A stretch of 64,000 nt of DNA from the NCBI RefSeq assembly GCF_013911755.1, contig NZ_JACESP010000002.1, positions 124,001-188,000 of the forward strand. The letters are read 5' to 3'. This stretch comes from Sphingosinicella sp. Lineage in GTDB: Bacteria > Pseudomonadota > Alphaproteobacteria > Sphingomonadales > Sphingomonadaceae. The translations under genes were made by a program, and so were the position numbers. The notes beneath the pieces were generated by a model, which saw nothing but the letters and a program-made list of their open reading frames with translations, was not told where the DNA came from and ran no database searches. Below, piece after piece: positions 2,387 through 9,790 of the stretch. How positions within the stretch are numbered: position 1 is the stretch's first letter; every line of letters begins with the position of its first letter.

Positions 2387-3550
2387 ATGAGTGAACCAAG
2401 ACGGGTCGCCGCCATCGTCGTTGCCGCAGGGAGAGGCTCCCGTGCGGGCGAAGGCGCGCCGAAACAATACAGGGTGCTCGCTGGCCAGCCGGTGCTCCGC
2501 CGTTCGCTTGCTGCGCTCGCGGGCCATCCCCGCGTTAGCCATGTGGTGGCGGTTATCCACCCCGAAGATACCGCCGCCTTTTCCGAAGCCGCGCAGGGAC
2601 TCGGCGCCTTGCCGGTCCGCGGCGGCGAGACACGGCAGGACTCGGTGCGCCGCGGTCTCGAAGCGCTCGCGGATTTTGCGCCCGACCTCGTCTTGATCCA
2701 CGACGCCGCCCGCCCGCTGCTCATGCATGACGTCATCGACCGGCTACTAGACGCGCTCGCGGAAAACGACGGCGCCGTCCCCGCCCTGCCCGTCGTGGAC
2801 AGTCTGCGCACCGGCGAAACCCATGCCGACGGCGAGGTCGACCGCAGCCGCCTGAAGCGCGTCCAGACCCCGCAGGCATTTCGGTACGCCGCCATCCGCG
2901 CGGCACATGCCACGGCCGCCCCCGATGCGACCGATGACGTCGCAGTTGCGCTCGCTGCGGGGCTGAGCGTCGCGTTCGTGGAGGGTGATGAACGTTTGGC
3001 CAAGCTCACTTACCCAACGGATTTCGCCCGCGCGGAAGCATTGCTTGGCGCTGGCCTCGTCACCCGCGTCGGCCAAGGCTTCGACGTGCACCGCTTCGGC
3101 CCCGGCGACCACGTCTGGCTTTGCGGCGTGAAGCTACCCCACGATCACGGCCTCATCGGTCACAGCGACGCCGACGTCGGCCTCCACGCCCTCACCGACG
3201 CGCTGCTTGGCGCTGCGGCGATGGGGGACATCGGCGACCATTTCCCGCCGAGCGATCCCAAGTGGCGCGGCGCGCCGTCGGACCAGTTTCTGGTCCACGC
3301 CCGCGACCTCATCCTCGCGCGCGGCGGCATCATCGATCACGTGGACGTCACGCTGATCTGCGAAACGCCGAAAGTCGCGCCGCATCGTGATGCCATGCGA
3401 CGGCGGGTCGCCGCGCTGTTGCGGCTCTCGGTCGAGGGGGTTAGCATCAAGGCCACAACGACGGAAAAGCTTGGCTTCACGGGACGCAAGGAAGGCATTG
3501 CGGCCCAGGCCACGGCTTCGATTCGACTCAGCACGGTGGAGATGAAGTGA
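2387..3550 (+). CDS. ispDF: Bifunctional IspD/IspF (MEP cytidylyltransferase / MECDP synthase)
   Basis: The 387-residue protein fuses two non-consecutive enzymes of the non-mevalonate isoprenoid pathway. Residues 1 to about 230 are the IspD cytidylyltransferase, with the nucleotide-binding loop [15 protein letters not shown] (13-27) and DAARPL. Residues from about 231 on are IspF, with the zinc-binding DVH in [11 protein letters not shown] and the [17 protein letters not shown] motif. The fusion is common in alphaproteobacteria. Translation starts at ATG 2387. The gene is the first of a + strand run whose next members start in GTGA overlaps, so it appears to lead a three-gene operon with a secreted unknown protein and pncC. 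Confidence 0.95.
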
Positions 3551-4074
3551 AACGTCCGGTCCTGATTCTGGCCTTGGCGAGCCTTGCGGTTTCCAGTGCT
3601 CATGCTGAAACGGGCAAGGATTGCATGAACGAAAAGCAGGCCCTCGCCTTTTCCGATTTCCTGCTCGCCACGGTCGCGCCGATCGTGGCGGAGCAATGCG
3701 GCACCGGGCACGCCGCCGTTTCGCCGGCGATCCTTGCGGCGCAGCCGCAGCTCCGCACACGTTTCAAAGCGCGCGGTGATGCTGCCTGGCCGGTGGTGCT
3801 GGATCATTTTCTGGGTCAGCAGGAAGACAAGGCCGTCGCCGACGCGATGCGCAAGCAGAGCGACGCCATGCGTCCCCTCGTCGCGAGCGTGACGGCGAGC
3901 GCGATCATCAAGGACATGTCGGCAAGCGACTGCGCCATGGCTAATGACCTCGTAGACGCCCTGCTGCCTTTGCAGGACGCGCAGATCGCGCGCCTGATCA
4001 CAGCCTTCATGCGTATCGGTGCCGGCAAGACCCCGTCCGGCCCGCAACTTTGCCCGTTGGGAGCAAAAGAGTGA
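3547..4074 (+). CDS. Secreted protein of unknown function, four cysteines
   Basis: The 175-residue product begins (GTG start overlapping the ispDF stop as GTGA) with a classical cleavable signal peptide: a short basic start, a hydrophobic stretch [10 protein letters not shown] and a likely cut after AHA (about residue 20). The mature part is mostly alpha-helical by composition and has four cysteines (in KDCMNE, AEQCGTG, ASDCAMA and QLCPLG), enough for two periplasmic disulfides. I recognise no domain. Its stop overlaps the start of pncC in the same GTGA fashion, so it is sandwiched and coupled between an isoprenoid gene and a nucleotide-repair gene. Nothing in the context reveals its role. 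Confidence 0.8.
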
Positions 4075-4589
4075 CATTGTTTGACGAAGACATCCTCGCG
4101 CTGGCACGCCGCGTGGTGGAACTGAACGCGGCGGCCGGACGCAAGGTCGTGCTTGCCGAGTCCTGCACCGGCGGCCTCGTCTGCGGTGCGATCACCGAGA
4201 TTCCCGGCTCCTCGGCCGTTCTGGAGCGCGGCTTCGTCACCTATTCGAACGAGTCGAAAACAGCGCAGCTCGACGTGCATGGCGACGTGCTCGAAACCTT
4301 CGGCGCGGTTTCGATCGCGACGGCCTGGGCGATGGCGCAAGGCGCGCTCGCGCACAGCGAGGCGGATGTCGCCGTGGCGATCACCGGCATCGCCGGGCCG
4401 GATGGCGGATCAGAATCAAAGCCCGTCGGCACCGTCGTCTTCGCCCGCGCGATCCGCGATGCGGACCCGGAAGACGTGGTTGCGGACATGAGGCAGTTCG
4501 GCGACCTCGGCCGCACGGGCATCCGGCTTCAGGCCGTGCGCTGCGCGCTCGAACTGTTGCTCACCGAAGAAGCGCCTGTAGCCGCATAG
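4071..4589 (+). CDS. pncC: Nicotinamide-nucleotide amidohydrolase PncC (CinA C-terminal domain)
   Basis: The 172-residue protein is a stand-alone CinA C-terminal domain, which deamidates NMN to NaMN in pyridine-nucleotide recycling. Family motifs seen are LAESCTGGLVCGAI near the N-terminus, the FVTYSNESKT strand and the ITGIAGPDGGS loop followed by KPVGTVVFA. I chose the GTG at 4071 (GTGA overlap with the upstream stop) because a GGGAG lies 7 bases before it; a TTG at 4050 is also in frame. The last 61 bases overlap the 3' end of the convergent Coq10-like gene, a long tail-to-tail overlap. Confidence 0.88.
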   Translation: MTLFDEDILALARRVVELNAAAGRKVVLAESCTGGLVCGAITEIPGSSAVLERGFVTYSNESKTAQLDVHGDVLETFGAVSIATAWAMAQGALAHSEADVAVAITGIAGPDGGSESKPVGTVVFARAIRDADPEDVVADMRQFGDLGRTGIRLQAVRCALELLLTEEAPVAA

Positions 4590-6663: not shown

Positions 6664-8064
6664 TCAGATGTGCAGCGGGCGGCCATAGGCGGCGAGCACG
6701 CTTTCGTGCATCATTTCCGACAGCGTCGGGTGCGGGAAGGTCGTGCCCATCAGCTCGACCTCGGTCGTCTCCAGCTCACGCGCGACGACATAGCCCTGGA
6801 TCAGCTCGGTGACTTCTGCGCCGACCATATGCGCGCCGAGAAGTTCGCCGGTCGCCTCGTCGAACACGGTCTTCACGAAGCCCTCGGTCTCGCCGAGCGC
6901 GATCGCCTTGCCGTTGCCGATGGCGGGGAACTTGCCGACCTTGACCTTGTAGCCCGCCTCCTTCGCCTTCGCTTCGGTAAGGCCCACGGAGGCCACCTGC
7001 GGGCGTGAGTAGGTGCAGCCGGGGATGTTGGCGGTGCTCATCGCGTGAACGTCCTTCGCGCCCGCCATCTTCTCGACGCAGATCACCGCCTCGTGCATCG
7101 CCTTGTGCGCGAGCCAAGGCCCGCTGGTGACGTCACCAATCGCCCAGAGGCCCTCCACATTGGTGCGGCCGTATCCGTCCGTTTCGATGTGCTTGTTGGC
7201 AAGCTGCTTCACGCCGAGCTTTTCCAGCCCGATGTCCTCGACGTTCGGCACGATGCCGACCGCGACGATGACATGGCTGAACTCCTGCGTTTCAACCTTC
7301 CCGTCCGCGAACTTGATCTCGGCCTTCACGCCCTTCGCGGTCGCCTCAAGCTTCTGCACGCCGGTCTTGGTGTGGATCGCCATGCCCTGCTTGGCGAGCG
7401 CCTTTTCCATGAAGGCGCTCACCTCGGCGTCCTCCACCGGGAGGATACGCTCCAGCATTTCGACGACCGTCACCTTGGCGCCGAGGTCCGAATAGAAGCT
7501 CGCGAACTCGATGCCGATCGCGCCCGATCCGATCACGAGCAGCTTTTCCGGCACCGCTTCGGGCACCAGCGCATGGCGATACGTCCAGATGCGCTTGCCG
7601 TCGGCCTTCGCGAACGGAAGCTCGCGGGCACGGGCGCCGGTCGCGACGATGATGTTCTTCGCCGACAGTTCCGTGCTCTTGCCGTCCTTGGAAACGGAGA
7701 GCTTGCCCTTCCCCGTCAGCGTGCCGACGCCTTCGTGGACGTCGATCTTGTGCTTCTTCATCAGCCCCTTGACGCCGCCGTTCAGCTGATCCGCGACCTT
7801 GCGGCTGCGCGCCACGACCGCCTTGATGTCGAACGACGGCTTCTCGGCGCTGAGCCCGTAGGCCGAAGCGTGCGTCAGATAGTGGAAGATCTCCGACGAG
7901 CGCAGCAGCGCCTTCGTCGGGATGCACCCCCAGTTGAGGCAGATGCCGCCAAGCCGCTCGCGCTCCACGATCGCCGTCTTCATTCCAAGCTGCGCCGCCC
8001 GGATGGCGGCGACATAGCCCCCCGGGCCGGAGCCGAGGACGATGAGATCGTAAGTGTCAGCCAT
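6664..8064 (-). CDS. lpdA: Dihydrolipoyl dehydrogenase (E3 of pyruvate dehydrogenase)
   Basis: The 466-residue FAD flavoprotein reoxidises dihydrolipoyl groups and passes electrons to NAD+. It shows the FAD dinucleotide motif LGSGPGGY (10-17), the redox disulfide GGICLNWGCIP with Cys42 and Cys47, a second NAD-binding GSGAIGIEFA, and the C-terminal His-Glu dyad in FPHPTLSEMMHE. The conserved start MADTYDL (8064) was chosen over an in-frame ATG at 8160 that lies inside the AT-rich upstream gene. The start overlaps the end of that small membrane-protein gene by 8 bases, so lpdA translation may depend on it. It is the last gene of the pdh operon. Confidence 0.96.
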   Translation of the reverse strand: MADTYDLIVLGSGPGGYVAAIRAAQLGMKTAIVERERLGGICLNWGCIPTKALLRSSEIFHYLTHASAYGLSAEKPSFDIKAVVARSRKVADQLNGGVKGLMKKHKIDVHEGVGTLTGKGKLSVSKDGKSTELSAKNIIVATGARARELPFAKADGKRIWTYRHALVPEAVPEKLLVIGSGAIGIEFASFYSDLGAKVTVVEMLERILPVEDAEVSAFMEKALAKQGMAIHTKTGVQKLEATAKGVKAEIKFADGKVETQEFSHVIVAVGIVPNVEDIGLEKLGVKQLANKHIETDGYGRTNVEGLWAIGDVTSGPWLAHKAMHEAVICVEKMAGAKDVHAMSTANIPGCTYSRPQVASVGLTEAKAKEAGYKVKVGKFPAIGNGKAIALGETEGFVKTVFDEATGELLGAHMVGAEVTELIQGYVVARELETTEVELMGTTFPHPTLSEMMHESVLAAYGRPLHI

Positions 8065-8272
8065 CGTATCTTTCCGTTCTCTTGGTCTCCATGAGAGACC
8101 ATCCAATGAAACCTGTGGTAATACCAAAAAGAGCCCCGACCCAAGGGGCAGAAAAATCATCGGGTATATAGAAAAAACTCATAATATCAAAATATTGATA
8201 TAATTTTATCATTGAAAATCCCAACAATGATCCGATTAAACATATCAATATCAAGTCATTTTTTTTTCCCAA
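8057..8272 (-). CDS. Small AT-rich membrane protein, possible 3' half of a frameshifted gene
   Basis: This 71-residue ORF has two hydrophobic segments (about residues 6-26 and 41-60) and a charged tail METKRTERYDG. Its only early start is a TTG lying within the end of the preceding small ORF, with no Shine-Dalgarno of its own. The overlap falls in a run of nine A residues on the coding strand (8259-8267). Removing one A would fuse this ORF to the upstream one into a single protein of about 149 residues with four or more membrane segments. GC content is near 40% by my count, far below the neighbours. I recognise no family. See the paired ORF at 8256-8507. Confidence 0.5.
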   Translation of the reverse strand: MGKKNDLILICLIGSLLGFSMIKLYQYFDIMSFFYIPDDFSAPWVGALFGITTGFIGWSLMETKRTERYDG

Positions 8273-8507
8273 AAAATCTGCACGATGGGTAAAACAATAT
8301 CAGAACGCCAATAAGAGTATTAGGAAAGGCGATGACCGATGCAGGGGCGGTAAGTATAAGCCCTTCGAGAAATGCGTAAAAAATACTGTCTAAATTCTCA
8401 AACCGCCCATCAATTGCCAAGTGCGCGAAAGGAAATAGAAACCCTCCCATCGCTGCACCCCCTACAACTGTAAGGGGTATTTTTTCAAATCTACTGGCTG
8501 TCTTCAA
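8256..8507 (-). CDS. Small AT-rich membrane protein coupled to pdhC, possible 5' half of a frameshifted gene
   Basis: This is an 83-codon ORF starting at TTG 8507, which overlaps the pdhC stop as TTGA. It encodes hydrophobic segments at about residues 11-32 and 43-79 and ends RFFGKKK directly after a nine-A run. The start is inferred from the overlap; the first ATG in frame (residue 20) is inside the first hydrophobic segment. No family recognised. Placement inside the pdhC-lpdA interval is unusual: other alphaproteobacterial pdh operons that I know have hypothetical genes here only occasionally. Composition suggests later acquisition. Together with the next ORF it reads naturally as one protein broken by one extra A. 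Confidence 0.5.
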
Positions 8508-9790
8508 GCCAGCAGGCCGAGCGGGTTTTCGACAAGGCGCTTGAACGCCTGCATCAGGCGGGCGCCGTCCGCGCCGTCGATGGCGCGGTGGTCGAAGCTG
8601 CCGGTCGCCGACATCACGGTGGCGATGGCGAGCGCGTCGTTCACGATGAACGGCCGCTTCTCCCCCGCGCCGATCGCCATGATCATGCCCTGCGGCGGGT
8701 TGATGACCGCGTCGAACTGCGTGATGCCATACATGCCCATGTTGGAGATGGAGGCCGTGCCGCCCTGATACTCGTGCGGCTGCAGCTTGCCCTCCTTGGC
8801 GCGGGCGGCGAGTTCCTTCATCTCGGTCGCAATGGCGGACAGGCTCTTGCCGTCCGCGCCCGTGATGATCGGCGTGATCAGGCCGTTCGGAATCGACACC
8901 GCCACCGAAATGTCGGCGCGGCTGTACTTGAACAGCTGGTCGCCCGAGATCGAGACGTTGCACTCCGGCACCTCGATCAGCGCGGCGGCGAGCGCCTTGA
9001 TGAGCAGATCGTTGACGCTGAGCTTCACGCCGCGCGGCTCCAGCGCCGCATTCAGCTCGCCGCGCAGCTTCAGCAGCGCATCGAGCCGGATATCCACGGT
9101 GAGGTAGATGTGTGGGATCGTCTGCTTTGCCTCGGTAAGGCGCCGCGCGATGGTCTTGCGCATGTTCGAGAGCTTCACAGCCTCGTGCGGAATTTCTGTA
9201 TCGAACGCTGCAGGCGCCGCGGATGCAGCGGCCTTGGCTGGGAGCGCAGCAGCAGCTGGTTTTCCGCCGTCGAGGTCCGCCTTCACGACGCGCCCGCCCG
9301 GGCCGCTACCCTGAACCTCGCCAAGGTCGATGCCCTTGGCTTCAGCGATACGGCGCGCAAGCGGGCTTGCCTTCACGCGTTCGCCAGCGTCGGTTGCCGC
9401 CGGTTCCGGCGCTGTCGGTTTCGGTGCTTCAGCCTTCACCGGTTCGGGCGCCGGCTGTGGTTTCTCTTCGGCCTTTGGGGTAGGTGCAGCCGCCTTCGGC
9501 GCCTCTTTCGGTTCCGCTTTTGCAGCCTTTGGCGCGGAGACCGCTTCGCCCTCTTCCGCGAGCACGGCGATCAGCTGGCCCACTGGAACGTCCTCCGTTC
9601 CTGCTTCAACGACAATCTTCGCGACCACGCCCTCGTCGATGGATTCGACCTCCATCGTCGCCTTGTCGGTCTCGATCTCGGCGATGACGTCACCGGGCGA
9701 AACCTTGTCGCCTTCCTTCACCAGCCATTTCGCGAGCGTACCGGTTTCCATCGTCGGGGACAGCGCGGGCATTGTAATGTCTATCGGCAT
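8504..9790 (-). CDS. pdhC: Pyruvate dehydrogenase E2, dihydrolipoamide acetyltransferase
   Basis: The 428-residue protein is the core of the pyruvate dehydrogenase complex. One lipoyl domain occupies residues 1-80 with lipoyl-lysine Lys43 in [10 protein letters not shown] long Ala/Pro/Lys/Glu linker follows, then the peripheral-subunit-binding domain ([16 protein letters not shown] and [13 protein letters not shown], about 138-175). The C-terminal acyltransferase domain carries the catalytic DHRAIDG with His401 and Asp405. Start ATG lies two bases after the pdhB stop. The stop overlaps a TTG start of an AT-rich ORF. Confidence 0.96.

Follow-up and report, generated by a model that had tools for sequence, protein, structure and literature searches.

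In PMC1088944, a large fraction of genomes show avoidance of A/T runs from a length of nine onward, and genes whose frame was broken by lengthening of a run of eight A to nine are described as "pseudo pseudogenes" that may still yield product. Two other reports state that insertions prevail over deletions when slippage occurs at A/T runs (PMC5574713, PMC6260861). Slippage has been shown experimentally for tssM1 of Citrobacter rodentium, where a run of eleven A stands before the stop (PMC4256274), and for Thermus dnaX (as cited in PMC1088944). Here we describe a small gene in the pyruvate dehydrogenase (PDH) operon of a Sphingosinicella strain, located in a 64,000-nucleotide stretch of DNA (contig C12, 124001-188000) that was analyzed as a whole and is referred to as the window. 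This gene is like tssM1 and dnaX in that an A run inside the gene shifts, or could shift, translation between a short and a long frame, and it is like the "pseudo pseudogenes" in that the frame breaks in a run of nine A and an intact homolog exists in relatives. It differs from the latter because the main direction of slippage would not restore its frame. Whereas tssM1 and dnaX are demonstrated slippage genes, the small gene is at most a candidate, and close relatives lack it. With confidence somewhat above even, we read it as an accessory gene for a four-helix inner-membrane protein of about 150 residues, the second half of which has been put out of frame by a one-base change in the A run, likely a young frameshift.

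The original prediction held that two small ORFs between pdhC and lpdA meet at a run of nine T on the plus strand (8259-8267), that removal of one A joins them into a protein of about 149 residues with several membrane helices, and that the end of the small gene overlaps the start of lpdA. The layout bears this out (window positions):

8504 to 9790, minus strand: pdhC (PDH E2 subunit), the upstream neighbor; stop at 8506-8504, with the TGA overlapping the TTG start of the small gene
8057 to 8507, minus strand: the whole small gene, 149 residues if read as one frame
8256 to 8507, minus strand: ORF1, 83 aa with two predicted membrane helices, ending GKKK-TGA directly after the A run
8259 to 8267, minus strand: the A9 run (T9 on the plus strand), the point of frame change
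8057 to 8272, minus strand: ORF2 in the second frame, which continues for about 66 residues past the tract and has two predicted membrane helices
8191 to 8252, minus strand: candidate RNA stem-loop, a weak one, with a predicted 12-bp stem a few nucleotides past the ORF1 TGA
6664 to 8064, minus strand: lpdA (dihydrolipoyl dehydrogenase, E3), the downstream neighbor; ATG at 8064-8062

ORF1 starts with TTG (8507-8505), sharing the letters TTGA with the pdhC stop, and terminates at TGA 8258-8256 immediately past the A9 (8267-8259). ORF2 lies in the +1 frame, reads GKKNDL..., and stops at TGA 8059-8057 with an overlap of 8 nt with the lpdA start. The joined frame contains no stop besides the one at the A run; if the gene is a pseudogene, it is therefore a young one, or else the frame is still used. 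The openness of the second frame has a probability of 0.023 under an order-1 Markov model, which is modest evidence alone, and a stretch this long and AT-rich would contain nine A or nine T in a row with a probability of 0.14 (Markov model trained on the same stretch, run included), so the run as such is no surprise. The T9 is the sole single-base run of at least eight in the 64-kb window. The GC content of the small gene is 39.5% over 8066-8503 versus 64.9% for the window, and this stretch is the one of lowest GC in the window (438-nt windows stepped by 50 nt).

The candidate stem-loop at 8191-8252 (minus strand) has a z score of -1.95, with 10 of 200 shuffled sequences folding equally well, and it was absent from the prediction for a second stretch, shifted so as to take in the A run. 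We rejected ribosomal -1 frameshifting, since ORF2 is in the +1 frame and therefore cannot be reached by a -1 shift, and since the stem-loop after the stop is weak.

The joined 149-residue product has four hydrophobic segments, the predicted membrane helices, at residues 14-32, 54-72, 85-103, and 121-139. The A run encodes a basic loop between helices 2 and 3, which places the break between the two helix pairs. By the positive-inside rule, a basic loop between segments 2 and 3 would be cytoplasmic. An AlphaFold model built from two sequences contains helices only, at compatible places, with a mean pLDDT of 45. No Pfam or NCBIfam family matched the joined protein, and the second half alone gave three Pfam matches under the cut-off (E 0.073-0.23). 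The best matches among PDB sequences were to Photosystem I subunit XI (PsaL, E 0.016-0.023), which we read as chance similarity between hydrophobic proteins. Among the literature matches listed for Sphingosinicella pyruvate dehydrogenase and for the sphingomonad PDH operon, lpdA, or membrane proteins, there was no description of this gene.

We then compared the operons of relatives, as the original prediction had suggested. A search of 148 relatives gave a match in two genomes, the window genome itself and Sphingosinicella microcystinivorans DSM 19791 (G004, NZ_RBWX01000007.1). In the latter, the gene is a single 154-aa ORF in the slot between pdhC and lpdA, with a GTG start over the pdhC TGA and an end in the same GATGGCTGA overlap with lpdA. 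The match spans the junction in one frame and without a stop (E = 1.8e-27), both halves are matched, and the identity with the joined window protein is 42%. This orthologous protein, too, matched no Pfam family, and its gene has no such A run at the corresponding place. A profile search of 397 family genomes at E <= 0.05 gave matches in 18 of them (window genome and S. microcystinivorans counted), and five loci were inspected (L019-L022, L029). One of these belongs to a different genus (G027, locus L019) and holds a single 150-aa ORF between pdhC and lpdA with 25% identity. Hence both clear orthologs, S. microcystinivorans and G027, are single proteins at the same slot and neither is divided into two separate full-length proteins, which supports an ancestral gene of one ORF. 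An order-level search returned 2 of 396 genomes, namely the window genome and G116 with a short and unconvincing match (E 7e-4).

The remaining inspected loci were more distant. Two loci elsewhere in sphingomonads encode small membrane proteins of about 135 aa with weak similarity to the small gene's protein (L022, 1279-1800; L029, 1435-1848), but these genes differ in lying outside the pdh operon, directly after a VWA-type gene (label by eye). In a ten-sequence set, phmmer linked the L022 protein to its S. microcystinivorans counterpart (E 1.3e-7) but gave no row for it with the window protein, and the hhalign probability was 66%; L029 was a profile match only (E 0.042). The matches at L020 and L021 fall inside a transporter-like gene (label by eye), and we set them aside as chance.

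These orthologs bear on two rival explanations. The small gene might be a functional split gene, in which ORF2 is translated by re-initiation just past the TGA and the two two-helix halves assemble. This is consistent with the position of the break between helix pairs and with TTG codons in the ORF2 frame within about 10 nt after the TGA, but no obvious ribosome-binding site was seen by eye and both orthologs are undivided, and we consider this reading barely plausible. Alternatively, it could be a phase-variable contingency gene, with an A run that gains and loses bases and so switches a membrane protein on and off. A homopolymer in a fast-diverging accessory membrane-protein gene would suit such a role; however, the S. 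microcystinivorans ortholog lacks the run, which therefore is no switch that both species have conserved, and this explanation appears highly improbable.

The small gene has diverged from its S. microcystinivorans ortholog far more than its neighbors have. Over the whole gene, pS is 0.749 and pN is 0.385; by halves, pN versus pS is 0.431 versus 0.760 and 0.351 versus 0.717. In each half pN is thus lower than pS, which shows past constraint on the protein encoded by the joined frame. Among 28 rows of matched neighboring ORFs in the first 30 kb, pS does not exceed 0.515 and pN does not exceed 0.072 in 27; the 28th (3340-4107, pN 0.121) looks like a wrong-frame ORF. For pdhC, dS is 0.378 and dN is 0.025. 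Synonymous saturation beside flanks at a dS of 0.38 suggests that the two copies of the small gene split long before their neighbors did. Unless this gene mutates very differently, at least one of the two copies has probably been replaced by exchange. A pdhC-lpdA tree of six sequences groups the window genome (G000) with G001, which has no such gene, and not with G004, which has it (support 0.95). In a comparison of pdhC between G000 and G001, we also observed two internal stretches at 53-65% identity (60-nt windows), perhaps linker indels, with all other windows at 81-100%.

Three other genomes of the genus (G001, G005, G002) have pdhC and lpdA adjacent, with a few bases between them or a short overlap and no small gene. 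The locus was thus identified in four other genus genomes, and the gene is missing from three of them; G003, a draft of 83% completeness with a best lpdA match of only 43% identity, did not yield the locus and stands outside this count. Because some relatives carry the gene whole and others lack it, the window copy is most likely an ordinary broken gene. The small gene as such is probably dispensable and fast-changing, as judged from these comparisons.

A one-base error in the A9 would explain the same observations. In that case the strain would have an intact gene, and the assembly would misstate the number of A; apart from the run, the joined frame is clean, and the assembly is a draft (3.63 Mb in 48 contigs). 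We looked at long runs throughout the genome. A/T runs of at least nine occur at four places (five matches, two of which overlap), and the A9 at 8259-8267 is the only one found inside a gene. At the other three sites, no gene-like frame spans the run: two are tails of terminator-like hairpins, and the third showed no hairpin by scan but an inverted repeat with a longer loop by eye. No frame switch was seen at a further 27 long runs (7 A/T runs of exactly eight and 20 distinct G/C runs of at least eight), and the 16 that lie in gene-like frames all continue in one frame across the run. For several of these 16, the gene-like stretch opens just 16 to 54 nt ahead of the run, and one gene contains two of the runs side by side. 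Because the frame test depends on high GC at third codon positions, a gene as AT-rich as the small gene would escape it, and no gene-like frame was called at the small gene itself. The window ORFs matched to S. microcystinivorans also align as single ORFs. These unbroken runs speak against a general homopolymer error, not against one at the A9, and we regard a sequencing or assembly error as unlikely.

Transcriptional slippage at the A9 would provide mixed mRNAs and hence a short form of the protein with two helices alongside a full one with four. The length of the run fits that of published slippage genes (PMC1088944), the run is the only intragenic one of nine or more that was found in the genome, and C. 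rodentium tssM1 provides an experimentally tested precedent (PMC4256274). As in slippage genes, an A/T run of about nine stands at the frame change, and an intact homolog exists in one frame. However, the common slip product does not restore the frame. When we varied the run length from 6 to 12, the full frame appeared only at 8 and 11, and a run with one added A gave 85 residues followed by a stop within three codons of the run. Since insertions dominate, the required -1 or +2 slip products should be a minority, and efficient rescue is not expected. The orthologs also weigh against slippage: each is read from one ORF without any shift, and the run is missing from the S. microcystinivorans gene, so that the frame change is not a programmed slippage site conserved with either S. 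microcystinivorans or G027. Slippage could restore some full-length product, though the commonest slip (+1) would not, and we consider productive slippage quite unlikely as the explanation of this locus. Of the three causes offered in the original prediction, the broken gene is the best fit, a sequencing error is made less likely by the unbroken frames at other long runs, and productive slippage is disfavored because a +1 slip still runs into a stop.

The frameshifted accessory gene that we favor suggests the following course of events. A gene for an accessory membrane protein is lodged tightly between pdhC and lpdA, and replication slippage has most likely lengthened its A run recently, putting the second half out of frame. 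The main product in the cell would be the 83-residue two-helix fragment ending in GKKK, and with this fragment as the main product the gene would be non-functional or nearly so. Messenger RNAs with a slipped A count may still give full-length protein at a low level. The original prediction had pointed out that a frameshift would also alter coupling to lpdA. The purine-rich stretch upstream of the lpdA ATG is retained, so the loss of coupling may be mild, and lpdA would still be translated from its own ribosome-binding region.

After establishing that the small gene is patchily distributed, we turned to the question as to what other sphingomonads carry between pdhC and lpdA. A search for lpdA gave a match in 364 of 397 family genomes. 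From the higher-scoring matches listed, we picked 60 further junctions by hand (L037-L096) and sorted them by script labels. In 15 of these, about 700 nt of sequence contained no recognizable pdhC end, and some of the 15 may not be a pdhC-lpdA junction. The two genes are adjacent (gap below 60 nt) in 8 cases, 12 slots contain none of the sorted kinds, and another kind of ORF occupies the slot in 40 of the 60 (script labels): a thioesterase-like ORF in 19, a DUF559-like ORF in 6, a one- or two-helix ORF of about 70 aa in 7, and an ORF with three or four hydrophobic segments in 8. L058 and L077 also have a small hydrophobic ORF but were tallied as thioesterase. Pfam confirmed one thioesterase and one DUF559 example. 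Slot proteins with three or four hydrophobic segments from G150, G361, G409, G006, G058, and G427 were compared with the small gene's protein by hhalign; the probability did not exceed 3% for any of them, and this comparison therefore shows no homology with these six.

The original prediction knew of no described member of the PDH complex like this protein. We rejected the idea of a new PDH subunit, given that the gene is absent from most genus genomes with the locus and that the content of the slot varies. Its AT-richness and a divergence far above that of its neighbors make the gene look like an accessory one that was exchanged at a variable site. An origin from a mobile element was rejected as well. 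Neither plasmids nor phages contained a match to the S. microcystinivorans protein, and a search of viral contigs with a three-sequence alignment gave 32 stretches that fit the pattern, none of which was confirmed.

A more elaborate possibility is that the slot serves as a cargo site that swaps fitted small genes, some of them membrane-protein genes of foreign composition, and that the A9 acts as a slippage control giving two- and four-helix forms and altering coupling to lpdA. We deem this combination very unlikely. That the small gene's protein makes a poor candidate for an additional PDH subunit is itself useful to know. In a GC-rich alphaproteobacterium whose genome has few A/T runs of nine (four places), the locus offers a clear case for weighing a pseudogene against rescue by slippage. 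It also shows a slot in a core metabolic operon that holds different small genes in different sphingomonads; if this variety reflects real exchange, it would illustrate how tightly packed core operons can carry accessory genes.

Two minor observations concern the slot ORFs of other genomes. The ends of the DUF559-like ORFs at L042, L060, L070, and L096 encode peptides of the PSPLAGEG or NPSPARGEG type, as if they were a repeat-bounded cassette (by eye). At L094 (G150), the same slot holds a 143-aa four-helix ORF with 40% GC and similar start and stop overlaps.
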